From the NCBI GenBank assembly GCA_944323745.1, contig CALUTQ010000002.1, positions 496,001 through 560,000 on the forward strand: a stretch of 64,000 nucleotides of DNA, read 5' to 3'. The notes beneath the pieces were generated by a model, which saw only the letters and a list, made by a program, of their open reading frames with translations, did no database searches and was not told the DNA's origin. Position numbers and translations under genes: made by a program. Below are positions 8,894-24,836 of the stretch, piece after piece. Source of the DNA: Candidatus Avelusimicrobium pullarium (GTDB lineage Bacteria; Elusimicrobiota; Elusimicrobia; Elusimicrobiales; Elusimicrobiaceae). Each line of letters starts with the position of its first letter. Positions within the stretch are counted from its first letter, which is position 1.

Positions 8894-10006
8894 TTATAAA
8901 GATTTTTCCGGCTCCAAAACAAGTATCATACGGTTCTTGCCGGCATCGTCGGGGAGCTGCACCGCTTTCACCGTGCATTTAACGTCTTTATTGATGACCG
9001 TTCCGCGCAGCACTTTTGTCGGGTTTTCCAAGGCTTCCCCCACCACCTGAATAATGCTTTGCTGGCGTCCGTCAAAAATGTCCAGCAAATGCACGGCACC
9101 TTTTTTCTTAATATTCATTTCAAAATTGGTGTAAAGAATATTGTTGTTTTCGTCAATCACCAAAGCACGTGCTCCGCGCGGCACCGTGACGGCCAAAATG
9201 GTTTTCCACCATTTTTGTTCTTTTTCCAAAGACATAATTTCCACATTTTCCAAGCCTTTTATGTCTTCTTTCAAACGGCCCAGCAGTGCCGTGATGGACG
9301 AGGCCACATCCCCAATTTCATCCGGCCGCGGCGTAAAGGGCAGTTCTAAACGGTTCAAAGATACAGCATCCACCCCGTCTTTTAAACTTTCCAGCGGGCG
9401 GATAATTTTGAGCAGCAGGAACAAATACAGCACCCCGCCGATGAGCAAAATCATAATAAAAGCACCTACGGCGTAACGCACCATAGACTGGCGAATCAGG
9501 GCTTTAGCCTCTTTTCTGGAAACGGTAATATTGACTACGCCGGCTACCGTATCTTTAGCCAAGAGCGGAATGGCCATATCGTAATAATTGCCGTCGTCAA
9601 ACATTATGGCTTTGGGCACACGGTCCCGAATGGCAAGCGGCACCACCGGCGTATCAAACACCACTTGATTGTTGTAATCGGAATAAGACATCATCAAAAA
9701 CTGCGTATTTTCGTGCCAGCGGATGGAGCCGTCGTCGTTTAAATACACCAGACTTTTAATTCTGTCATCGTTTCGGGTCCAGGCTTTCATTACTTCCGCC
9801 TCGCGGAAGGTGGCATCTTTACGCGGACGGGCAGACAAACTGGACACCAAAAGCGGCGCGCGGAAACGCACCATTTCCACCATTTCGTTTTGCAATTTCT
9901 TGTCAAAAACGAATTTGAACATATTGTAATAGAACAATCCGCCGATGATGGCCGCATACAGCGACACCAACACGAACCATAATGTCCACTTAGATGTCAG
10001 TTTCAT
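8894..10006 (-). CDS. Membrane sensor protein with HAMP and PAS-like domain, no kinase domain
   Basis: About 370 residues from the ATG at 10006 (GGGAGA upstream; an in-frame TTG at 10018 is part of that site). An N-terminal helix (about 5-27), a periplasmic sensor region (about 28-180), a second helix (about 181-205) and a HAMP segment (LKIIRPLESLKDGVDAVSLN) are followed by a coiled coil and a PAS-like C-terminus containing ALVIDENNNILYTNFEM. There is no HisKA, HATPase, GGDEF or methyl-accepting domain, so it cannot signal by phosphorylation alone. Its position after the TPR gene in the Tad operon suggests it senses an envelope state and acts by protein contact (inference). Confidence 0.75.
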   Translation of the reverse strand: MKLTSKWTLWFVLVSLYAAIIGGLFYYNMFKFVFDKKLQNEMVEMVRFRAPLLVSSLSARPRKDATFREAEVMKAWTRNDDRIKSLVYLNDDGSIRWHENTQFLMMSYSDYNNQVVFDTPVVPLAIRDRVPKAIMFDDGNYYDMAIPLLAKDTVAGVVNITVSRKEAKALIRQSMVRYAVGAFIMILLIGGVLYLFLLLKIIRPLESLKDGVDAVSLNRLELPFTPRPDEIGDVASSITALLGRLKEDIKGLENVEIMSLEKEQKWWKTILAVTVPRGARALVIDENNNILYTNFEMNIKKKGAVHLLDIFDGRQQSIIQVVGEALENPTKVLRGTVINKDVKCTVKAVQLPDDAGKNRMILVLEPEKSL

Positions 10007-10018
10007 ACATTCTCCCAA

Positions 10019-11404
10019 TTACCGGATACCCGTTAATTCTTCCACTTTGCGCAGACCCAAATCGGCATCGGTATTGCCCGGGTCAAGCTGCTTGGCCACG
10101 ATCCACGCCTGGCGGGCGCGTTCGTAATCGTCTTGGTTAAACGCATCCAGCCCTTCAATGTATTTCTGGCGGGAGGCTGCACTGGCTTCGGCCGATACAC
10201 GGCCCGCCGCTCCGCCGATGCCCTGCGTTACGTTATTGCTGTCCGAAAAAGTAGGCGACCCCGGCACGCCCGAGCCGATGGGGGTAAGGCTGTTGCCTTC
10301 CACCGTGACGGTCTCCACCGGTTCTTCTTCCTCCTCTATGGCTTGGGCTTCCTCTTCCGCCTGTTTTTGGGCGGCTTCGGCTGCTTTTTGAGCGGCTTCC
10401 TGTTTGCGTCTTAAAGCCTCTTCTTTGGCGTTGCGGGCCTTTTTAATCAGCCGGTCCATATGGGCGGCATCTGCCCCCCATTTTTTGGCATTGGTCCAAT
10501 AGTTGATGGCCGTATCGTATTTTTGCGCATTATACGATTTGTTCCCCGCCGTAAAATAGGTTTGGGCAATTTCTTCTTTCAGCTGGCTCATATATTTTTG
10601 CGCACGGGTATCGCCGGGTTGTATTTTGGTGATGCGTTCAAACACGGCATAAGATTCCACAAAGCGCCCTTGGTTATAATAATTCATTGCTTCTTCCATT
10701 GCTTGCTGTACCTGCTGTTTGCGCAGCAGGTTTTCCGTCTGGGCAATGCGGTTGACCAAGGCGGGATCGTCCTTGCGAATCAGCAAGGCGTTATACCAGT
10801 TGTCCAAAGCGCGCTGATAGTCCTGTTCGTCATACGCCACATTGCCGCGGCGGTTATATTCCCGGGCAATGTCGCCGTCAATGCGCTTTTTCCAGGAAAG
10901 TGCTTTGGAATTGTGCGGTTGAATGGTTAAAATTTCGTCCAGTTTTTCATTGGCTTCCACCAAGCGGCCCGAATCATACATACGGTTGGCCTCTTGGAAT
11001 TTGGCTTCAATTACCTCCGCCTCGGACGTGGTGCCGTACGCCCCCATATGGCTGGCCTGCTTGGCCAACGTTGAGGCCTGCGTAAAGTTGGGGTCAATGC
11101 TTAAAATGGTTTGTGCCATTTCCTGCGCGCGCTGATAGTCCCCGTGGCGGTAGAGCGTATAGGCGTTTTCATACACTTGGCGCAGCATATAGTTTTGGAT
11201 GCGCTGCTTTTCCAGCTGGACGGTGGACAAGTACTGCTTTTTTTCTTCCACGTCATTAAGCGTGCCCAAGGTAATTTTATTCAGGTCCAGCATCATTCCC
11301 TCTTCTTTGCCGTGCTGGCGGATCGGGTTAGGCTGCCGCAGCGGTGCGGCAACCAATGCAGAGGCTAAACTGACAGCCAAGAATGACAAAAGATATTTTT
11401 TCAT
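10019..11404 (-). CDS. Exported TPR-repeat protein (Tad operon)
   Basis: A 461-residue protein starting at the ATG at 11404, preceded by AGAGGA; a TTG five codons earlier overlaps that site. Signal peptide MKKYLLSFLAVSLASALVAA is followed by several TPR units (for example YTLYRHGDYQRAQEMAQTIL, AYDEQDYQRALDNWYNAL, YNAQKYDTAINYWTNAKKW), a Lys/Glu/Ala-rich coiled coil around 325-370, a Ser/Gly-rich linker and a final TPR-like pair with YERARQAWIVAKQLDP. TPR proteins commonly accompany Tad loci (TadD) and help secretin assembly; this could be the TadD equivalent. It is cotranscribed with tadC, with the stop-start distance close to zero. Confidence 0.8.
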   Translation of the reverse strand: MKKYLLSFLAVSLASALVAAPLRQPNPIRQHGKEEGMMLDLNKITLGTLNDVEEKKQYLSTVQLEKQRIQNYMLRQVYENAYTLYRHGDYQRAQEMAQTILSIDPNFTQASTLAKQASHMGAYGTTSEAEVIEAKFQEANRMYDSGRLVEANEKLDEILTIQPHNSKALSWKKRIDGDIAREYNRRGNVAYDEQDYQRALDNWYNALLIRKDDPALVNRIAQTENLLRKQQVQQAMEEAMNYYNQGRFVESYAVFERITKIQPGDTRAQKYMSQLKEEIAQTYFTAGNKSYNAQKYDTAINYWTNAKKWGADAAHMDRLIKKARNAKEEALRRKQEAAQKAAEAAQKQAEEEAQAIEEEEEPVETVTVEGNSLTPIGSGVPGSPTFSDSNNVTQGIGGAAGRVSAEASAASRQKYIEGLDAFNQDDYERARQAWIVAKQLDPGNTDADLGLRKVEELTGIR

Positions 11405-11415
11405 AAATTTTCCTC

Positions 11416-12303
11416 TCAAAAACTGAGCCCCTGCGAAAGCAGGCCTTTAATCATAGGCGACAATATTAAAATGAATATTGTCGGAAAAATGAAAATAAAC
11501 AAAGGGAACAGCATTTTCGTAGAAGCCTGCGCAGCCAATTTCTCAGCGCGGCTCATACGGCGGGTGCGCAAATCGGACGAAAAGTTGCGCAGCAAGTCCA
11601 CCAAGCTGGTACCCAATTCGTCGGACTGAATAATCAGCCCCACCAAAGAGCGCACTTCCTGCACATCGGTGCGGTTGGCAAAACGTTCCAATGCCTCGCG
11701 GCGGGAATAACCCAGTTTAATTTCTTTTAACGTTTTGTCCAGCTCTTCTTCCAAAATCGTTTTCTTTTTGGCAATATTGATGATTCTTTCAAAAGCGGTT
11801 AAATAGTCCAGGCCGGACTCAATAATCAAGGCGGCCAAATCTACCGTAGTGGAAAAATTGCCCAAAATTTCGGCCTGTCTTTTTTGAATGCGGCTCTTTA
11901 AAAACACATCCGGCAAATAAAACCCCACCGGCACGAAGATAATGCCCCAAATGCTTTGGAACATCAGCATCAAGGCCGCCGGCAAAAGCAGGGCGGAAAT
12001 AATTTTGTAATACAAAATATCCACCGGCTGCGGCAAATCGGGGCTGCCCAGCTGCATATGCATTTGTTCCAGCGGTTTTTCCAAATGAAACGTATTTAAA
12101 CAAAATACCGCCAGACGGTCTATCCATTTCGTTTCCGGCTGCAGACGGGCAAAGCTGGACGAAGATTTAAACCGACGGGCGGCTACGTCCACAATTTGTT
12201 CTTCTTCCCGTTTGGGAGCCAGCAAAAGAAAAACCGTTAAAAATACAGACACGGCCCCCAGCATCATCAGGAACATCAAAGAGAGAAAGAGTATTTTATT
12301 CAT
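11416..12303 (-). CDS. tadC: TadC-like inner membrane platform protein
   Basis: A 295-residue type II secretion F-domain protein. An N-terminal helix (FLSLMFLMMLGAVSVFLTVF), a cytoplasmic stretch, a pair of helices near 95-135, the F domain (about 160-285) with ALIIESGLDYLTAFERI and LGTSLVDLLRNFSSDLRTRR, and a C-terminal helix near FIFPTIFILILSP. TadB and TadC form the membrane platform that couples the TadA ATPase to pilin extraction. It directly follows the TadB gene (five bases apart), the usual TadA-TadB-TadC order. Confidence 0.9.
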   Translation of the reverse strand: MNKILFLSLMFLMMLGAVSVFLTVFLLLAPKREEEQIVDVAARRFKSSSSFARLQPETKWIDRLAVFCLNTFHLEKPLEQMHMQLGSPDLPQPVDILYYKIISALLLPAALMLMFQSIWGIIFVPVGFYLPDVFLKSRIQKRQAEILGNFSTTVDLAALIIESGLDYLTAFERIINIAKKKTILEEELDKTLKEIKLGYSRREALERFANRTDVQEVRSLVGLIIQSDELGTSLVDLLRNFSSDLRTRRMSRAEKLAAQASTKMLFPLFIFIFPTIFILILSPMIKGLLSQGLSF

Positions 12304-12307
12304 ACCG

Positions 12308-13930
12308 TCACACCTTCACTTCGCCCAGTTTTTGGATCAGTTTCATACCGATCATAATCCAGATAAAGCAGCCGAACAATACAAACAAACCGATCGGCGT
12401 GGTATAAAAAGAAATCATCTCATCGGGGCGGAACATAAACATTACGCCCAACATAATCACCGGCATAATACCGACCACGATGGCCTGTATTTTCTGCTGT
12501 GCGGTCATAGCGTCCAGTTTTTCTTCCAGCTTGCTTTCTTCGCGAATGTTTTCCACCAGACGGGCAAAAATGACCGTCAAGTTACCGCCCACCTGACGCT
12601 GAATAATGATGGCTTTAATCGTGTACGAAAGCATACGGCTTTCCACGCGGTCGTCCAAGCCTTCCAGCGCTTTTTCAAAGGGGGTGCCCAGACGGTAGTT
12701 TTTAATTACCAGTCCGAATTCGTCCGCAATAGGCGGCTGCATATCGTGGGACACTAATTCAAACCCTTGCACGATATCCATACCCGAACGCAACGAGTTG
12801 GAAAGCAAAATCAGCGAGTCCATCAGCTGGGCATTAATTTTGCGCCCGCGGCTTTTTTTCAGTTTATCCAACACAATAGGCGGAATGCGTATGCCCAAGG
12901 CGGCGCCCATTGCCATAAACAGGAAGAAAACAAACACGCCGCTAAAGCCGCCTACGGAAATGCCCATCATTAAACCGAATATGCCAAATACGCCCACTGT
13001 GCCGAAAACGATGTAGCGCACGTCAATGGTCAAAAACTGGCGGTTAAAATCTTCAGCCCAAGCCACACTTTTTTCGCGGTAGCGGTCCCACGCATCCAGC
13101 AATTGCTCTTTTTTGTTTTCCAACAACAAAAACACGGCATAGGCCACACAAACGCCGCCAAAAATAAGCAACAATGCATTAAACAACCGTTCCCCTTCCG
13201 TAACCTGAAAAATTTTAGGATCAGGCGGGTTCATCGGAATAGGGACGGAGCGGAACTCGCTCCACAGCAAGTTGGCCATTGTTACCACGGCCATCACGGA
13301 ACGACGGTATTTGTCTTCTTTTTCCGAAGCCGGACTGGTAAAAGATTCAATCGTGCTGTAAAACTCGCGGTTCATAAACTCAAGCGTTGCCAGCATAGCG
13401 CGCGCGCGGCCCTGCATACTGTCTTTCATTACGTAAATGTCGCGTCCGCGCACCAAATCTTTATTCAAACGGTCCAAGTTAGCCACCAAATTAATGCGGT
13501 TGCCCACATACCCGCGGGAAAGCTGTTCCAGCACAATGGGTTTGGTGGGGTCCAGTGCGTCATTGGCTCGGGCCAAAAAAGCATACACGTTGGCAAACGT
13601 GCGGTACCACAAGGTAGCTTCGCTTAGGGTGCCTTCCCCCTGAATATAGACCACCTTGGTGGCTTCCATTCGTTTGAGTTCTTCTTCAAACCAGCTGGGC
13701 ATATTAATTACTTTGCCTTTTAAAGATGCACCGCAAGACGACGGATACTCATATTTTTTCTGTTCAGAGGGCTTATTTACGTCAAAATAATTGCCCAGCA
13801 CCATCATTTTGAACATAGCGCATTCTATTTTTTGTTTATCCCTTTGGTCCAATGCACGCGCAGAAGCCGACTGCGGAGCAGCCGTAACCAAAAGCAACAA
13901 CAAAGAAGTCAGCAACGTAATTTTTCTCAT
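12308..13930 (-). CDS. tadB: TadB-like platform protein with extra exported N-terminal domain
   Basis: A 540-residue protein. The C-terminal half is a standard type II secretion F domain (about 360-490) with DSLILLSNSLRSGMDIVQGF and QRQVGGNLTVIFARLVENIR, flanked by membrane helices including LFVLFGCFIWIMIGMKLI at the end. Unlike usual TadB proteins of about 300 residues, it begins with a signal-like segment and a domain of roughly 200 residues before the first internal helix (around 230-250), containing a Cys pair and no recognised fold. That domain should lie in the periplasm. The gene is 13 bases after the fused tadZ-tadA gene. Confidence 0.85.
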   Translation of the reverse strand: MRKITLLTSLLLLLVTAAPQSASARALDQRDKQKIECAMFKMMVLGNYFDVNKPSEQKKYEYPSSCGASLKGKVINMPSWFEEELKRMEATKVVYIQGEGTLSEATLWYRTFANVYAFLARANDALDPTKPIVLEQLSRGYVGNRINLVANLDRLNKDLVRGRDIYVMKDSMQGRARAMLATLEFMNREFYSTIESFTSPASEKEDKYRRSVMAVVTMANLLWSEFRSVPIPMNPPDPKIFQVTEGERLFNALLLIFGGVCVAYAVFLLLENKKEQLLDAWDRYREKSVAWAEDFNRQFLTIDVRYIVFGTVGVFGIFGLMMGISVGGFSGVFVFFLFMAMGAALGIRIPPIVLDKLKKSRGRKINAQLMDSLILLSNSLRSGMDIVQGFELVSHDMQPPIADEFGLVIKNYRLGTPFEKALEGLDDRVESRMLSYTIKAIIIQRQVGGNLTVIFARLVENIREESKLEEKLDAMTAQQKIQAIVVGIMPVIMLGVMFMFRPDEMISFYTTPIGLFVLFGCFIWIMIGMKLIQKLGEVKV

Positions 13931-16988: not shown

Positions 16989-17747
16989 TTATTGAAATAA
17001 TTTGTCAAATGTGGCAATTTCCATTACGTAGTTGGTCACATCACCCTGAGAACGCAAGATGACGGAAATTTCGCCGCCGTCCTGATTCTGGGCCAAGGCC
17101 AAATACTGGGCATCGGTGGGCGTTAAGGCCAAGCTCAACGCGCCCGTATCCGTATAGGCGTTGGCGTCTTCTTCTTGGTTACGCATTGCAGCCGCCGTTT
17201 TGGCGTCCAAACCTTGTCCTAAATCGGAGCCCACACCCAGCACCTTGACGTTTTGCAAAAGCGTGATGGTCACTTTCTGGCGGGAGCCGTTTTTCATAAT
17301 GGCTTCAAAAGTAAGCAGAATGTCAATGTTGTCATCGGGTTTAATCATACTGGCAATATTGGTAGGCACCGTGATGACGTAGCCTCTCATCTGCACCGGG
17401 ATTTTGCTGGAAAGGCCTGCCTCGGGAGAAAGCGAGGTGACGGCATATTTGGAAATTTGGTTTCCTTTAGGAATTTGAACGCGTGCGATGGCATTGTCAA
17501 TTTTGGCAAAGTCGGCATCGGTCGTCCACGTAAAAGCGTCCTTTTGCACATACGCGGCAGGCACTTGGATGCGTTTTAAGTAATCGCGTTTGATTACTTC
17601 GCGCTCCTTAATGTCGCGCACGGGCACCAGCACCGTTTTCATATTCTGAGAAGCATTGAGCTTTTTCTGCCCGTTATTTAAGATTATCACATACACAAGC
17701 GTTGCCAATATGGCCAACACTAACGGAAGCATCATTCCTTTTTTCAT
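16989..17747 (-). CDS. cpaB: CpaB/RcpC pilus assembly protein
   Basis: A 252-residue CpaB family protein: N-terminal anchor (MLPLVLAILATLVYVIIL), an SAF-like domain with VLVPVRDIKEREVIKRDYL and VQIPKGNQISKYAV, and a RcpC domain with GYVITVPTNIASMIKPDDNIDILL style sequence (about 115-155). CpaB links the inner membrane platform to the secretin and may bind peptidoglycan. AAGGAG precedes its ATG by six bases. It is upstream of the secretin, as in Caulobacter-type cpa clusters. Confidence 0.92.
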   Translation of the reverse strand: MKKGMMLPLVLAILATLVYVIILNNGQKKLNASQNMKTVLVPVRDIKEREVIKRDYLKRIQVPAAYVQKDAFTWTTDADFAKIDNAIARVQIPKGNQISKYAVTSLSPEAGLSSKIPVQMRGYVITVPTNIASMIKPDDNIDILLTFEAIMKNGSRQKVTITLLQNVKVLGVGSDLGQGLDAKTAAAMRNQEEDANAYTDTGALSLALTPTDAQYLALAQNQDGGEISVILRSQGDVTNYVMEIATFDKLFQ

Positions 17748-17802: not shown

Positions 17803-18291
17803 TTATTTCGGGTCAGAGCTGGCATACATTTTTTCCACTGGCATTCTGGTTGTTGCCTTTATTTTGCGTATCCCTTGCTTGCGGGGTTCGCTGGCCAGCA
17901 GCCAGCTGGTGCCCGGAAAAGCCAACTGTATCGGATACGTAACCGTTACAATAACATCTTCGTGCTGATGGCGCGAATACATCGGGTCCGTGCCCGTTGT
18001 CTGCACCTTGATAGCCACCGAAATACGCTGTGCGTCTGCGCCAAAAACCTTCTGTTTGGCTATCTCTATTTTATTTCTCATCGTACCCGTATTGGCGCGT
18101 CCGCTGGGTTTATTGGTGCCTACCAGAGCCGCTATACGGGCAAATTCATAGGAAGCGTGATTGGCAATAATGGTGTGATAGGCGATGTTGCCGTATTCCA
18201 ATATAAAGAATATCATTAACATCAGCACCGGCAGAATAAGCATCAATTCTACCGTTACCTGCCCTTCACGCTCCCTACGAAATATTTTCAT
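17803..18291 (-). CDS. TadE-like pseudopilin (second copy)
   Basis: A 162-residue TadE protein. Its N-terminus REREGQVTVELMLILPVLML carries the Gly-Gln-Val-Thr-Val-Glu processing site and hydrophobic helix (about 8-32), then an exported domain. It is shorter than the copy at 1,997 and lacks internal cysteines. It lies between the Flp pilin and cpaB, with AAGGA before the ATG. Having one TadE with the structural pilin and another with the TadG-like gene matches Tad loci that use two minor pseudopilins. Confidence 0.88.
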   Translation of the reverse strand: MKIFRREREGQVTVELMLILPVLMLMIFFILEYGNIAYHTIIANHASYEFARIAALVGTNKPSGRANTGTMRNKIEIAKQKVFGADAQRISVAIKVQTTGTDPMYSRHQHEDVIVTVTYPIQLAFPGTSWLLASEPRKQGIRKIKATTRMPVEKMYASSDPK

Positions 18292-18308: not shown

Positions 18309-18536
18309 TTATTCGCCGGTCTGGTTGATACCGCCGATAATTTTCTGTTTGATGTTTTCAAACAATTCCGGCATCATATTTTTAACCAGAGTGCCCACCA
18401 ACAGAGCAATACCCACCACCACGCCGAGCATAATGATATACTCAATGGTGTTCTGACCTTCTTGTTTTTTTACGCAGTTAAACGCGGCTTGTTTCAGGGC
18501 GTTCAACTTATTCTGCATAGCGATGACAAACTTCAT
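18309..18536 (-). CDS. flp: Flp-type major pilin candidate
   Basis: Seventy-five residues with a leader of about 25 ending KKQEG, then GQNTIEYIIMLGVVVGIALL, the Gly-X-X-X-Ile-Glu-Tyr signature of Flp prepilins, and a short polar tail (ENIKQKIIGGINQTGE). Cleavage would leave about 50 residues, the size of a major Flp subunit. The strong ribosome site AGGAGG before the ATG suggests high expression, which supports it as the main structural pilin. Confidence 0.9.
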   Translation of the reverse strand: MKFVIAMQNKLNALKQAAFNCVKKQEGQNTIEYIIMLGVVVGIALLVGTLVKNMMPELFENIKQKIIGGINQTGE

Positions 18537-18560: not shown

Positions 18561-18755
18561 CTAAACATTCGCATCATATACTGACAAAATGATTTTGGCA
18601 CCTTGGTCAAACTGCTGCGGCACCAAGTTGGAATATAAAGCGTAAAAAGCTAAAAAAGCACCAAACAGAAAGCCGGCCGTCAGCACATATTCAATAGCGG
18701 TCTGCCCTTTGTTCTTTTTAAGCCAAGCCACACACGCTTTACATTTCTTTTTCAT
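18561..18755 (-). CDS. Flp-type pilin (second)
   Basis: Sixty-four residues: Lys-rich leader with two cysteines, then KGQTAIEYVLTAGFLFGAFL and a C-terminal LVPQQFDQGAKIILSVYDANV. It bears the same processing site as the neighbouring Flp gene 24 bases downstream but has a weaker ribosome site and a different tail. It may be a minor pilin or an alternative subunit. Confidence 0.85.
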   Translation of the reverse strand: MKKKCKACVAWLKKNKGQTAIEYVLTAGFLFGAFLAFYALYSNLVPQQFDQGAKIILSVYDANV

Positions 18756-18790: not shown

Positions 18791-19759
18791 TTAGAACTGG
18801 ATAGCCACGGCAATCTGCTGCGACGTGCCCAACGCGCCAAACGGCGTGACGGCATAGTCAATGCTGGCACCGTAGCCGAACAATTCAGAGCTGTAAATAC
18901 CGAAACCGAACGAAATTTTAGACGTAGCGTCCAAACCCAAGCTCTTTAAGTTTTCGCTTTCGCTGTAGCCGGTGCTTTCGCGGTCATAATAACCAACACG
19001 CAAGTCAAAACGTGCCACCTGCAGCAAATCTTCCGGAATGTGAATCTCTAACCCTACGCCCAAGCGGCCTTCGTCGTCCACGTATTTCATATATTCGCCC
19101 GACACCGTCCAGTATTTGGTATTAATGTCGGCCCCTAAACGCCAGCCGCGCGGCATTTCGTCAGTATCGCCGATGTTTACAATAGCGCCGCCCAAACCCA
19201 GCCATTTCCAGGGGCGGGCCTTGGCACCCACGTCAAAACCTACGTTGGTATAGCGGTAGGTGTCCAATTTTTCATTGATATATTTAGCCGTGGCGCCAAT
19301 TTGCAACCCTTGGTCAAAAAACCCGCGGGCTAAAGACAGGCTGCCCACAAAGTTCTGCACGGGCGTCGTAATGGTAGCCTGCTGGTTACCATATTCGTCG
19401 CGGAAATCAAACCCGTCCATATCCATATAGTTAAACGTCACGCCGATAATGGTTTTGCCCATAGGCTGCAAATACGCCAACGTGCGCGATTTATAGCCCT
19501 GCAGGTAGTCCTGATAGGAAAACTGCAGCTCGCGCGTCGTGGCGGATGCCGCACCGGCCGGGTTCCAAAACAAGGCTTCCGGCCCTTCGGCGATGGATAC
19601 ATACGCATTACCCAACGCTTGGGCACGAGGTGAGCCGGCGTCAATCTTCAAGAACGCGCTCGCGCTGGTACCGGCGTCGGAATAACTTTGGGCCAAGGCG
19701 GCCGGAGCCGCCAAAGCCAAGGTTAAAAAGGCAAACAGAACTGTGTTTTTTATCTTCAT
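18791..19759 (-). CDS. PorV/PorQ-like outer membrane barrel protein
   Basis: A 322-residue protein with signal peptide (FAFLTLALAAPAALA) and the PorV/PorQ family start SAFLKIDAGSPRAQALGNAY followed by EALFWNPAGAA. Alternating hydrophobic beta strands to a C-terminal Phe (QQIAVAIQF) indicate an outer membrane beta barrel. In type IX secretion, PorV is a shuttle for proteins carrying C-terminal sorting domains; related barrels occur widely outside that system. It lies 11 bases after the 1,605-residue surface protein whose C-terminus resembles such a sorting domain, so a partnership is plausible. CAGGA precedes the ATG. Confidence 0.85.
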   Translation of the reverse strand: MKIKNTVLFAFLTLALAAPAALAQSYSDAGTSASAFLKIDAGSPRAQALGNAYVSIAEGPEALFWNPAGAASATTRELQFSYQDYLQGYKSRTLAYLQPMGKTIIGVTFNYMDMDGFDFRDEYGNQQATITTPVQNFVGSLSLARGFFDQGLQIGATAKYINEKLDTYRYTNVGFDVGAKARPWKWLGLGGAIVNIGDTDEMPRGWRLGADINTKYWTVSGEYMKYVDDEGRLGVGLEIHIPEDLLQVARFDLRVGYYDRESTGYSESENLKSLGLDATSKISFGFGIYSSELFGYGASIDYAVTPFGALGTSQQIAVAIQF

Positions 19760-19770
19760 AAATTCCTGTC

Positions 19771-22700
19771 TTATCTGGGTATCAAGATTTTAACGACTTT
19801 CTGGCAGTGCTGTCTGCCGTTTTGAGCCCGGAAGTCCACCAAGCCGAAATATACGCCGCGGGCCACTTTCTTGCCGTGGTCATTGGTCCGGTCCCAGAAG
19901 CAGCGCAAGGCTGCGTTACGGACCGTAGGCATATTGCCTTCATAAGGCGTATTGCTGACTGTGTTATCCGGCTGCAAATCAATAGAGGTACCCATCGTTA
20001 CCGTCATATTGTTGGCGTCCACACACTGATAACCGCCTTCGCGCACCAAGTCGCCGGCTAAGTTATAAAGTTTAATGGACATTTTGCCCGGCACCGGCAG
20101 TTTGGTAATTTCCATCGTCCCGTTAGCCGTCTTGAACGGGTTAGGATAGAAGAATACCGTTTTCTCCCAGTCTTCGCAGACGAACTCCCCGTCACCGATG
20201 GCCACCGTGGCGTGATGCAGGTTGACATACTGATACGTATCTGCCACGTTTTCAATGCTCCACTGGCTCGGGTCCGTGCTGGCATCGTCGGCGTTCAGAA
20301 TTTCGCCGGTTACAGAGTCTATATCGGCCGAGTTCAAGGCCGTTACAAAGCGGAACGGATAGGTGCCGTCCGGCACGTCCTGCTGGGCATAGTCGCGGCC
20401 GTCCCACACTTCTTCAATCAGCGTAGTGGACGGGCGGATGCCCACAATGGCGCGCACCAGCACATCGCGGATATCGGTTACTTCTTTACCCGTGGCCGGG
20501 TCGCGCAAGGTACCTTTTTGATAATCGTAAATGGTGGTACCGGGTTTGAAAATTTGGATAGCCACTTTCATCGGCACGGAAATCTGATACGAAATCTTCA
20601 TATCTGCCCCACGCTGGTTGAGCGCATAGGCTTCGGTTTCCGGCAAGTCGAACACTTTAAGCAGGTCCACATTTTGGGTCAGCTGCTTGACCGTGGGCTG
20701 ATACAAGCCTTCATCGGGGTAGTTCTTAGCCGTCAAGCGGATTTCATAGTTCCCGTTGCGCACATAATAGCCGTTATTGTCGGTGCCGTCCCAATAGATT
20801 TTGCGTATCACATTGGGGTCAAAGTTCGGCGTATTGACAATAGTCATTGTGCTTAAGTATTTGCACACGTCACCGGCTTTGGCCATTTGTGCATTGGGGT
20901 CGCCCGGCACAACCGGCGTATTGGTGGTGGTGCACAGGCCGTCTTCCAACGCGACGATGGCAACTTCCACCGTAGCAGCGCGGGAAATGGCAAAGTTAAT
21001 TTCATACGGCGGCACGAACACCGGCCCCGAAGACGTGTTAAACAACTGCGGGGCGTTGGGGTACACGGCTACCGTGCCGTCCAGGAAGTACACCGGTCCG
21101 CGGGTAATGTTAACGCGGTACACGGTTTTATCCGTGGCGTACAAGCCCGTCTGCGGGGTAACATCGTCCGCATTACGCACCGGCTGAGCCGTGGTGGCGT
21201 TATAGTACAGATCCACCGGTTCTTCCGTCTGCGCAGAGATATAGAACGGATAGGTACCGTCCGGAATCATTTCGTACGGGCAGGCCTTCAAGTCCGTCTG
21301 GTTGCTGCAGGCCGCTACGGCTTCCGGCGTGTTTTTGCCGCCGTCAAGCGTAGAAACCGGCGTCGGGTTATAGAAATACTGCGCGTCCCATTCTTCCGTA
21401 ATGGTCACGCCGTCACCGGCTTTGAGTGCGGAGCGGTTGAAGGTTTTGACCGGCTGCAAGCGTACGTCCAAGGTCTGGGCGGCGCCTTCGCCATAATTGT
21501 ATTTGGCCGCTTCCGGGTTGGTCGGATAATTGGTAAAGGTGGTATCGTTTACATAGATACACTGCGGATTCTTAGTCGGGGCCACATAGCCGTTAGTAAA
21601 GAAGGCCGCATCCGTCTGCTGGTCGCACACGCGCGGCGGCCAAGAGGTAACGTTTACCGTAAAGCGGACAATTTCGTTGACCGTATAATCTTCCGTCGTG
21701 TCCGTAACGGCAGTCACCTGTTTCTGGATGCGATAGTAGGTGTAATTCGTGCCGTTGTTCATCGGTTCGGTATATACATAGGAATAACCTACGGTATCGC
21801 CAGCCACCAGCGGAGCGCCCGCCACACTGACCGGCAGCGTGCCTCCGACCGTTAAATTCGGCAACGGATTGGGATTCAACGCCTCCACCGCTTTAAGCAT
21901 ATCCCCCGTGACATTATTTATTAATATCTGCGTAGTGGAACCGGTATCTTTATATGTCGGGATGACCACATCTTTATTATAGATGTTGATCTGCACGTTC
22001 ATCGCTTTGGACAGCATATAATTAATGGTAGCTTTGGCTTCACTGTCGCCATACACGTCTGTCGTGCTTACGTCTACCAAACGATACAGATCCACCGGGA
22101 AAATGGCCGAAGCCGTCGTCTGCACGCTTTCCGGGAACATAGGGTCTTTGGTTTTGACCACAAACATATAGGTGCCGGGGCCCACCATACGGCCTTGGTC
22201 GTCGCGGCCGTCCCAGGTCAGCGTATTCATCTGCTGGGCAACATTGGTGTTACCGCCTTCATCGGTCAAGGTTTTAACCGTCACACCGGCGGTATTTTGC
22301 ACATAAGCTTCCACCGTAGATTCACGCGCCACAGAATATTTAAAGACGAACGGGTCTAACCCGTACGCCGTCGGGCTGGAGCCGATGGTGGAATAGCTGA
22401 CCGGTTGAATGGTAATGTCCACCACGCCCCGTTCCACCGGCATAATGCCGGAATAGTAACGCAAGGTTTTTACACCGGTATAGGTGCCGTTTTGAATCGT
22501 TTCTGCATCTGCATTGCCGGGGGTTGCACAACCCGCAGGGTTAGGATGGCAGGCAGCCCCATTATAATAGGTATCCGTATAAGGAACTTCCGCCCACAAT
22601 ACATATATATAGTCGCCGTCCGGCAGCGGAGCGCCGTTGGCATAGGTAATTACACAGTTACCGTTAGTTACGGTGCCGCCATCCTCGGTACACGTGTCGG

Positions 22701-24588
22701 CTGTTCCGTCAAAAACAGTACCGGTAATAGGCAGTTTCGTCCCTTGCGGATAGGGGATGGCACAGCCGTTTTCCTCGTCGTTTTCCTCGTGGCAAAGGCC
22801 GTCCCACTTGTCAGGATAACTTTGGCTGCGGCCGCGCTGCTGCTGGTTGCGGTAAACTCTTACACCGCTGCCATTAGCGATGACAGGAGAGGTACCTGTC
22901 GGCTGGTAACCGGCCGTGTAGAGGCTGTCAAAAGTGGTGCCGGGGGAATAAACTTCAAAATACACGTTGGAAGATTCCGTAGGCACATAGCGAATGGTAG
23001 CATAAGCCGTAGACTGTTTATTAAGCCCTTCCACCTGAATATCCGTCAATTTCAGCGGGTCTACAGACACTTGGCGCGTAACCGCACGCGAAAAGTCCGT
23101 TCCCGGCCATTCGTCTTGGCTCTTGGCTTGGATAGATACCAAATAGTTATTGGCCGGCAGCAAGCGGCCGGAATCATCACGCCCGTCCCACGGGTCAGAT
23201 TCCACAATAATCTGGTCGCTGTCGGCGCCCTTCATCCCTTCGCCCAAGCGCGGCTGCCAGTCCACCAAATGGCGCACTACCGCATTTTGGTCAAGCACCA
23301 GTTTGGCAGCATTCGGGTCCATTTCAGAAATGCCGGTATTTTCACCACCAGGTCCTTCATCCCCATTTGAGCCAGTATAAGGAATTTGGGCAGACGCATC
23401 AAAAACCTCAATACGTACGTCGGAATCTTTACTCAAACGGTAAGCAAACGTATAAGGCAATGCCTGCACCGCCGTAATGGAACCGACCACCGTTGGCGTG
23501 CTGCGCACGGTGTGCACATTGGTTACGTCCACCTGAATAGGATATTGGGCGTCGCCCGGGTAAGAGAAACTGTCATTAATGGAAATAGATTCAATTGCGT
23601 CGCCGTCACCGGGGAATTCCGTTTGGATATTGGCGCGGAAACCAAACTGTCCGTTGGTTTTGCCGAACTCGCCTAAAATTTCGTAAGAACCGTCCCAAGA
23701 CGTGCAGAAACGCATCGGCTGCCCGTAAGCGGCCCCGTTCTTGTCAAAAACGACACATTTGCCCACTCTGTTAGAATTTTCGCATAAACCTTTAACCGTT
23801 TTATTTTCACCAGTTTCGGTGCCATACTTTCTGCCATCCATTGTCAAACAATGCGCTGAGGCAGGCTCATCATCCGCTTCTCCTTTTTCCACATCGCAAT
23901 AATATTCGGCCGCAGGGCACGTATATGTCGTTTCAAATTTGCTGGTTGCCCCCCAACAGTGATAGGAACCGCACATAAAATCTTTAACCGGCAAGGTCTG
24001 GCCGGCAGAACCCGGAGTAGTGCCACCCGTCACAATTTGGTTATCCACAATAGCCATATTAATGGTGCGCACGGCGGGGTTTGTTTCCGGATTTTCAATG
24101 CCTAAAGATTTATTGTATTTGGCAATTTCAAAACGAATACGCTGAATAGGGAAAGCAATAGAATAGGTGCTCTGCCCCATCGGGCGGTTGGTGCAGTACA
24201 CATCAAAGCACAAAGCCAAACAGTGGTTAGGATATTTATTTTCTTTTCCAGGGGCAGGATACGGCTGGTCATATTCTATCAGGGCAGAAGTATCCCACGG
24301 ATCATTGGTGTTGTGATCACCCACGTTAACTACAGCACCTTTATAGTTTTTGGCGGTAATAGTAGGGGAAGACGCGTCTGCGGGATCACCGAAAATTTCC
24401 GTATTTTTCCAGTTGCAATACACATCGTTAATGTCCGTTCCGCCGTCTACATAATAGACGCCGGCGGCGCGCAACTCGGCCGTTTGGGCATAGGCGGCGG
24501 GGGCAGCAAAGGCCAAACACAACAACGGCAAAACAGCCGCTAAGACCGTTTTGCCCGAGAGAAACTTCCAGAAATTTTTATGTGTCAT
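19771..24588 (-). CDS. Giant exported protein with FlgD-like Ig repeats and sorting-like C-terminus
   Basis: A 1,605-residue protein with signal peptide (VLPLLCLAFAAPAAYAQ). It contains repeated FlgD-type Ig modules marked by WDGRDDSGRLLPANNYLVSI near 467, WDGRDDQGRMVGPGTYMF near 792, WDGTDNNGYYVRNGNYEIRL near 1266, WDGRDYAQQDVPDGTYPF near 1394 and WDRTNDHGKKVARGVYFG near 1566, plus at least two interrupted modules near 597 and 1067. The N-terminal ~350 residues are cysteine-rich and lack the repeats. The C-terminus (FFYPNPF near 1500, ending KVVKILIPR) resembles type IX sorting or FlgD domains. It is the first gene of the Tad operon, so an adhesin or pilus-linked surface protein is likely; the function is not known. 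Confidence 0.85.
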   Translation of the reverse strand: MTHKNFWKFLSGKTVLAAVLPLLCLAFAAPAAYAQTAELRAAGVYYVDGGTDINDVYCNWKNTEIFGDPADASSPTITAKNYKGAVVNVGDHNTNDPWDTSALIEYDQPYPAPGKENKYPNHCLALCFDVYCTNRPMGQSTYSIAFPIQRIRFEIAKYNKSLGIENPETNPAVRTINMAIVDNQIVTGGTTPGSAGQTLPVKDFMCGSYHCWGATSKFETTYTCPAAEYYCDVEKGEADDEPASAHCLTMDGRKYGTETGENKTVKGLCENSNRVGKCVVFDKNGAAYGQPMRFCTSWDGSYEILGEFGKTNGQFGFRANIQTEFPGDGDAIESISINDSFSYPGDAQYPIQVDVTNVHTVRSTPTVVGSITAVQALPYTFAYRLSKDSDVRIEVFDASAQIPYTGSNGDEGPGGENTGISEMDPNAAKLVLDQNAVVRHLVDWQPRLGEGMKGADSDQIIVESDPWDGRDDSGRLLPANNYLVSIQAKSQDEWPGTDFSRAVTRQVSVDPLKLTDIQVEGLNKQSTAYATIRYVPTESSNVYFEVYSPGTTFDSLYTAGYQPTGTSPVIANGSGVRVYRNQQQRGRSQSYPDKWDGLCHEENDEENGCAIPYPQGTKLPITGTVFDGTADTCTEDGGTVTNGNCVITYANGAPLPDGDYIYVLWAEVPYTDTYYNGAACHPNPAGCATPGNADAETIQNGTYTGVKTLRYYSGIMPVERGVVDITIQPVSYSTIGSSPTAYGLDPFVFKYSVARESTVEAYVQNTAGVTVKTLTDEGGNTNVAQQMNTLTWDGRDDQGRMVGPGTYMFVVKTKDPMFPESVQTTASAIFPVDLYRLVDVSTTDVYGDSEAKATINYMLSKAMNVQINIYNKDVVIPTYKDTGSTTQILINNVTGDMLKAVEALNPNPLPNLTVGGTLPVSVAGAPLVAGDTVGYSYVYTEPMNNGTNYTYYRIQKQVTAVTDTTEDYTVNEIVRFTVNVTSWPPRVCDQQTDAAFFTNGYVAPTKNPQCIYVNDTTFTNYPTNPEAAKYNYGEGAAQTLDVRLQPVKTFNRSALKAGDGVTITEEWDAQYFYNPTPVSTLDGGKNTPEAVAACSNQTDLKACPYEMIPDGTYPFYISAQTEEPVDLYYNATTAQPVRNADDVTPQTGLYATDKTVYRVNITRGPVYFLDGTVAVYPNAPQLFNTSSGPVFVPPYEINFAISRAATVEVAIVALEDGLCTTTNTPVVPGDPNAQMAKAGDVCKYLSTMTIVNTPNFDPNVIRKIYWDGTDNNGYYVRNGNYEIRLTAKNYPDEGLYQPTVKQLTQNVDLLKVFDLPETEAYALNQRGADMKISYQISVPMKVAIQIFKPGTTIYDYQKGTLRDPATGKEVTDIRDVLVRAIVGIRPSTTLIEEVWDGRDYAQQDVPDGTYPFRFVTALNSADIDSVTGEILNADDASTDPSQWSIENVADTYQYVNLHHATVAIGDGEFVCEDWEKTVFFYPNPFKTANGTMEITKLPVPGKMSIKLYNLAGDLVREGGYQCVDANNMTVTMGTSIDLQPDNTVSNTPYEGNMPTVRNAALRCFWDRTNDHGKKVARGVYFGLVDFRAQNGRQHCQKVVKILIPR

Positions 24589-24696: not shown

Positions 24697-24725
24697 ATTT
24701 TTACAACTTTTGGCCTTCTTGTCAA
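24697..24725 (-). promoter_or_regulatory. Probable promoter of the Tad surface operon
   Basis: TTGACA (24725-24720) with a 16-base spacer to TAAAAA (24703-24698) on the minus strand. This predicts a start near 24,691 and a leader of about 100 bases before the ATG at 24588. The leader contains an AT-rich inverted repeat (TTATATTTTTAATATAA on the plus strand, around 24,650-24,668) that could affect translation. No strong ribosome site precedes the ATG. Confidence 0.6.
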
Positions 24726-24836
24726 CTCTTTTATGTCGTTTGAGTACAATTTAAAGCACATACTATTTTCTTCTTTTTTTTCTTTCCTTTTGTTTTTCGT
24801 GCATTCTCCGTCGGAGAACTTACCGGACGGTCTAAA

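Follow-up and report, generated by a model that had tools for sequence, protein, structure and literature searches.

The DNA considered here, hereafter the window, is a stretch of 64,000 nucleotides (positions 496,001 to 560,000 of contig CALUTQ010000002.1, assembly GCA_944323745.1) from Candidatus Avelusimicrobium pullarium, a gut member of the Elusimicrobiaceae with a genome of 1.62 Mb. It carries an operon for a Tad (Flp) pilus whose first two genes encode a protein of 1,605 residues, here called Giant, and a PorV-like outer-membrane barrel. We hold with moderate confidence that Giant and PorV are a cargo and its dedicated shuttle in a type IX-like secretion pathway, a divergent one outside the Fibrobacterota-Chlorobiota-Bacteroidota (FCB) group, and that the pair is built into the Tad operon. 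By analogy with the SprB-SprF pair of Flavobacterium johnsoniae, the most likely role for Giant is that of a type IX-like cargo with its own PorV as carrier, and its position at the head of the Tad operon suggests that it is probably produced together with the pilus.

Both open reading frames (ORFs) lie exactly where the first-pass annotation had placed them, with 11 bp between them, and transcription runs from high to low coordinates through Giant, PorV, Flp1, Flp2, TadE, CpaB, the secretin, a CpaE-CpaF fusion, TadB, TadC, a tetratricopeptide repeat (TPR) protein and a sensor, all gaps from Giant down to the sensor gene being 55 bp or less. The promoter-like motif GTTGACA-N9-13-AAAGTTG occurred once in the window, upstream of Giant, and not at all in shuffles; a looser form (N6-14) was present in one copy in each of 33 relative loci, and in the aligned relative loci, L088 among them, the motif stood shortly upstream of the Giant start. 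No terminator-like sites were listed on the operon strand between PorV and Flp1. From the single conserved motif before Giant and the absence of a listed PorV-Flp1 terminator, we infer that Giant and PorV are co-transcribed with the Tad genes from one promoter, in agreement with the earlier suggestion that the pair leads the Tad operon.

This arrangement is conserved across the class. PorV was detected in 118 of the 120 genomes of the order Elusimicrobiales, in all 18 genera, and the order Giant-PorV-Flp-TadE-CpaB-secretin-CpaEF-TadB-TadC was kept in every Elusimicrobiales locus among those listed, some of the contigs ending early. All 20 loci from other families of the class agreed with this order over the length that their contigs cover, and a locus of family f11 (L215) combined PorV and Tad with a short protein of 374 aa bearing a C-terminal sorting-like domain (CTD). 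Within the class, the Tad-PorV clade and this CpaB occurred together (44 both, 16 neither, 1 and 3 mixed; Fisher 3e-11) in a test that ignores phylogeny and whose thresholds, E 1e-45 and 1e-30, were picked after the values were seen. PorV was found at none of the Tad loci of 11 genomes outside the class (0/11), and to our knowledge standard Tad loci carry neither Giant nor PorV. A 387-aa ORF lying about 2 kb from a Tad secretin outside the class (L210:392-1555) gave a weak CTD match (E 9e-5). The first-pass annotation had named relatives with the two genes away from Tad loci, under promoters of their own, as grounds for giving up its proposal; we found instead class-wide linkage, with the sole conserved promoter motif before Giant.

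Both sequence and predicted fold point to a PorV-type barrel. It matched the PorV/PorQ family model NF033709 with an E-value of 3e-25, and for its AlphaFold2 model (pLDDT 82) the two best solved structures returned by Foldseek were PorV proteins of the type IX secretion system (T9SS), 8gl6_F and 6h3i_F, with FadL/TodX-type proteins next, in line with the original call of a PorV/PorQ-like barrel. A sequence search of the PDB with the protein alone gave no match, and the fold comparison was needed. A second weak PorV match in the source genome (L108:9688-10926) appeared FadL-like by eye and was not taken for a second PorV, leaving one PorV in this genome.

For Giant, the FlgD-like Ig modules of the first reading, put there at no fewer than five, number about six: Pfam FlgD_ig exceeded its cut-off once, at residues 756-814 (64.7 bits), and WDG..GxY-type motifs, kept across genera, recur at residues 467, 792, 1067, 1266 and 1395 by pattern search and at 595 by eye. 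Identity with flagellar FlgD was set aside, FlgD equivalog models reaching at most 54 bits against cut-offs of at least 230, with the Ig-like domain alone in common. The N-terminal domain contains conserved cysteines (58, 123, 127, 132 and 295), and the Tad region encodes a DsbA/thioredoxin-like protein with a CPFG motif recognised by eye (window 8564-7605); together these make a disulfide link possible.

The C-terminus of Giant resembles the type A sorting domains of T9SS cargo. An in-house family CTD profile (A4), which itself includes the Giant CTD, scored it at 97.8 bits, and when this profile was run against the PDB the CTDs of PorZ and PorU came first. Type A CTDs have a near-invariant Lys near the C-terminus (PMC10994853), and the invariant Lys of profile A4 falls at the corresponding position in the alignment. 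With a borderline match to TIGR04183, these results bear out the sorting-like C-terminus read at first pass. Profile A4 gave two matches in the source genome, one being the Giant CTD and the other probably Giant module 753-814, which scores 26.7 bits with this profile; a six-frame search of the same genome with TIGR04183 missed even the Giant CTD and is therefore a weak null.

A candidate pore is encoded elsewhere in the source genome. An ORF of 1,814 aa outside the window (L124:2977-8421) matched the SprA/Sov model TIGR04189 at E 3e-31 (SprA-like ORFs gave values from 3e-31 to 8e-37), and such ORFs were found in 117 of 120 genomes of the order and 254 of 295 of the phylum, compared with none of 14 control genomes. 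Where complete they are about 1,750-2,230 aa long, in most genomes about 1,750-1,900 aa. Queried against PDB sequences, whether as a single sequence or as a profile, this protein gave chance matches only, and here too fold comparison was needed: with an AlphaFold2 model of residues 60-1200 (pLDDT 68), the four best PDB matches in Foldseek were all SprA (3e-38 to 4e-27), the next lying at 3e-5. Global TM-scores were modest (0.36-0.41 by query length) and root-mean-square deviations large, for which reason the structural match favours homology over a precise model; on the modelled fold we regard the ORF as a divergent SprA/Sov homolog. LptD was set aside as an identity for this gene, Foldseek pointing to SprA. 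Beside it lie two membrane-protein ORFs (L124:8425-10793) that look by eye like LptF/LptG-type permeases, and on its other side an ORF that looks ComF-like. The first-pass annotation had seen no Sov-like gene, which stands for the Tad region read here but not for the genome, and its implication that the pair works without such a pore is not supported, given this gene, found by the genome-wide search that it had itself proposed.

The association of PorV with CTD proteins is not confined to Tad. Among 20 non-Tad PorV loci from free-living relatives, picked by PorV similarity alone, the immediately adjacent same-strand gene ended in a CTD at 17, no CTD match occurring anywhere at those loci except beside PorV, and at an eighteenth (L168) the CTD next to PorV was marked by the PorU model. 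Outside the CTD these proteins are unlike one another (PQQ propellers, fn3, lectin/C1 peptidase), and seven of eight tested cargo proteins pass TIGR04183. Genomes of free-living relatives gave up to 19 PorV matches and 5 to 42 CTD matches each, against none to three of the latter per gut genome, and outside the class PorV and SprA tend to be present or absent together (65 both, 33 neither, 4 and 4 mixed, again ignoring phylogeny). In free-living Elusimicrobiales, for example G072:C11:39393-39680, PorU-CTD-type matches were seen in very long open frames of up to 17,613 aa. Profile searches of the source genome, limited in sensitivity, revealed no CTD or FlgD_ig protein besides Giant, although SprA is still kept; in this genome, then, Giant may be the main protein that SprA serves. 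Based on the pairs away from Tad, we concluded that Giant-PorV belongs, as one member tied to Tad, to a broader family of type IX-like cargo and shuttle proteins and is not an altogether new route.

The same recurrence bears on the other ways of reading the locus. Pairs away from Tad in free-living relatives, the single promoter with signalling genes nearby, and Tad loci outside the class that manage without the pair would all suit a cargo-shuttle pair that is merely co-regulated with Tad, sharing its promoter and its adhesive life stage but not joined to it physically or functionally; we think this somewhat unlikely, since the fixed position in the Tad operon throughout the class and the co-absence from families in which this Tad is missing exceed what it would lead us to expect. 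It is distinctly improbable that Giant belongs to the structure of the Tad machine, as a pilus tip, as a collar or as a sheath associated with the secretin, and that it exits by way of the Tad secretin and is anchored in the outer membrane by PorV, the SprA-like pore serving other proteins. The class-wide linkage to a short secretin agrees with that idea, as does the FadL-like character of the only other PorV candidate in the source genome, but CTDs like that of Giant are the ones that accompany PorV at non-Tad loci, the nearest solved structures of the barrel are T9SS PorV proteins, and small gut genomes keep SprA although no further CTD cargo was seen in them. Finally, PorV could be a plain transport barrel of the FadL type and Giant a scaffold in the periplasm whose FlgD-like CTD has no sorting role, FlgD-Ig modules occurring in flagellar proteins too, FadL/TodX structures coming next in the Foldseek list and PorU not having been found. 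Against this, CTD-PorV adjacency recurs with unrelated cargo bodies, a SprA-like pore is present, and SprA and PorV co-occur across the phylum; we consider it very unlikely.

Several observations count against a cargo and shuttle of a type IX-like pathway. All three component models fell short of their curated cut-offs, narrowly for the barrel (NF033709, 89.4 bits against 90) and the Giant CTD (TIGR04183, 22.7 against 23), and by a wide margin for the SprA-like ORF, which is below the 200-bit equivalog cut-off of TIGR04189 in every genome. Alignment showed a long insertion in the Giant CTD relative to cargo CTDs, and the neglect of phylogeny in both co-occurrence tests belongs here as well. 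Of the PorU and PorK-N components, a search for which was likewise proposed at first pass, PorU and GldM (PorM) were looked for: no PorU sortase/peptidase was found among 31 genomes, all matches there being limited to the C-terminal portion of the model, and the GldM model TIGR03517 was silent in 32 genomes and equally silent in all control genomes. Because PorU was not found and GldM was silent without a control that responded, we describe a pathway with a pore, a shuttle and a cargo signal and do not call it a full T9SS.

For Giant and PorV as type IX-like cargo and shuttle, the following scheme is proposed. Giant would be exported by Sec, recognised through its CTD, which PorV would bind, and would cross the outer membrane by the SprA/Sov-like pore, whose gene lies elsewhere in the genome; the PorV-like barrel would carry or retain it at the surface, much as SprF serves SprB. 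A single promoter for Giant, the Flp pilins and the Tad assembly proteins would ensure that Giant is made with the pilus, with which it would most likely act in adhesion. A bolder version, which we put forward as doubtful, is that the class Elusimicrobia has a type IX-like pathway outside the FCB group whose cargo-shuttle pair, class-wide and in gut lineages apparently the only one, is built into the Tad pilus, and that pilus and SprA deliver one joint adhesive structure, Tad perhaps taking the place of GldL/M in supplying energy or position.

Table 1. Features of the Tad locus and its two leading genes (window coordinates)
Feature	Coordinates	Strand	Basis or remarks
Giant, secreted modular protein, 1,605 aa	19771..24588	-	signal peptide by eye; Cys-containing N-terminal domain; ~6 FlgD-Ig-like modules; C-terminal CTD
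T9SS-type-A-like sorting domain of Giant (residues 1476-1605)	19774..20163	-	YPNP, GDLV, W, GVY, invariant Lys K1600
PorV-like 14-strand outer-membrane barrel, 322 aa, predicted cognate shuttle of Giant	18791..19759	-	NF033709, AlphaFold2, Foldseek
Promoter-like element GTTGACA-N-AAAGTTG, operon head	24704..24726	-	conserved; single copy in window
Flp-type prepilin 1	18561..18755	-	GQTAIEY motif
Flp-type prepilin 2	18309..18536	-	GQNTIEY motif
TadE-like minor pilin	17803..18291	-	sequence and conserved position
CpaB/RcpC	16989..17747	-	TIGR03177 101.1 bits, over cut-off; PF16976
Short secretin, 248 aa	16236..16982	-	PF00263 E 8e-43
CpaE/TadZ-CpaF/TadA fusion ATPase, 760 aa	13944..16226	-	TIGR03819 E 2e-99; T2SSE and MinD/ParA-like domains
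TadB, long N-terminal extension	12308..13930	-	conserved position; matches TadB/TadC-type pair of other Tad loci
TadC	11416..12303	-	conserved position
TPR protein, TadD-like position	10019..11419	-	profile search and conserved position
Membrane sensor protein, same transcription unit as Tad genes	8894..10018	-	weak histidine-kinase sensor matches; conserved position

The pilus components themselves (Flp pilins, CpaB, secretin, TadA ATPase and TadB/C) were all identified in the window. The secretin has a signal-peptide-like start and is so short that the usual N-terminal domains could hardly be accommodated. TadZ/CpaE-like and TadA/CpaF ATPase domains are fused here, and long ORFs matching CpaEF (630-727 aa) were seen in Tad loci of other classes too; the extension of the 540-aa TadB is not found in the TadB-like proteins of 266-303 aa outside the class. 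Upstream of Giant are a GGDEF gene and then a 248-bp gap; beyond the sensor gene a 329-bp gap is followed by the DsbA-like gene, sensor and response regulator genes, and TadG/TadF-like genes assigned by eye.

According to a 2024 paper on CTDs, phyla other than those of the FCB group lack T9SS genes (PMC11285876), and our literature search, from which subscription titles mostly fell outside and whose results did not list the main groundwater Elusimicrobia genome paper, found no report of either T9SS or SprA for the Elusimicrobia. If the Elusimicrobiota at large have a SprA-like pore, PorV paralogs and CTD cargo, the origin or the spread of the pathway would shift beyond that group. A pathway in which no PorU was found, and which in small gut genomes is reduced to a single apparent cargo, would offer a natural system of minimal size for asking where SprA gets its energy and by what means a shuttle selects its cargo. 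Linkage to Tad joins two surface machines usually studied separately; the class-wide place of Giant-PorV at the head of the Tad operon and the SprA-like pore elsewhere in the genome suggest joint production of adhesion pili and type IX-like secretion.

Among known systems, the Tad/Flp pilus shares with this locus the Flp pilins, TadE, CpaB, secretin, TadZ/TadA, TadB, TadC and TPR protein in one place, but here Giant and PorV stand at the head, TadZ and TadA are fused and the secretin is short. The FadL/TodX family has a comparable monomeric barrel with N-terminal helices and supplies the lower-ranked structural matches to the PorV-like protein, whose sequence model and best structures nevertheless favour PorV and whose gene pairs with CTD proteins. 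The SprA-PorV translocon (8gl6, 6h3i; PMC10994853) headed the Foldseek lists for both the SprA-like ORF and the barrel, and the near-invariant Lys of its CTD substrates is kept in Giant, although the SprA-like protein here is shorter and under the TIGR04189 cut-off throughout. The SprB-SprF and type B pairs of F. johnsoniae differ in that the shuttle here is of the PorV and not the PorP/SprF type, the CTD is type-A-like, PorU was not found, the pair sits inside a Tad operon and the phylum is outside the FCB group. They are alike in having a long surface protein that ends in a sorting domain, a barrel gene immediately downstream, which in SprB-SprF is required for secretion (PMC12618676), and a SprA-type translocon encoded elsewhere in the genome.
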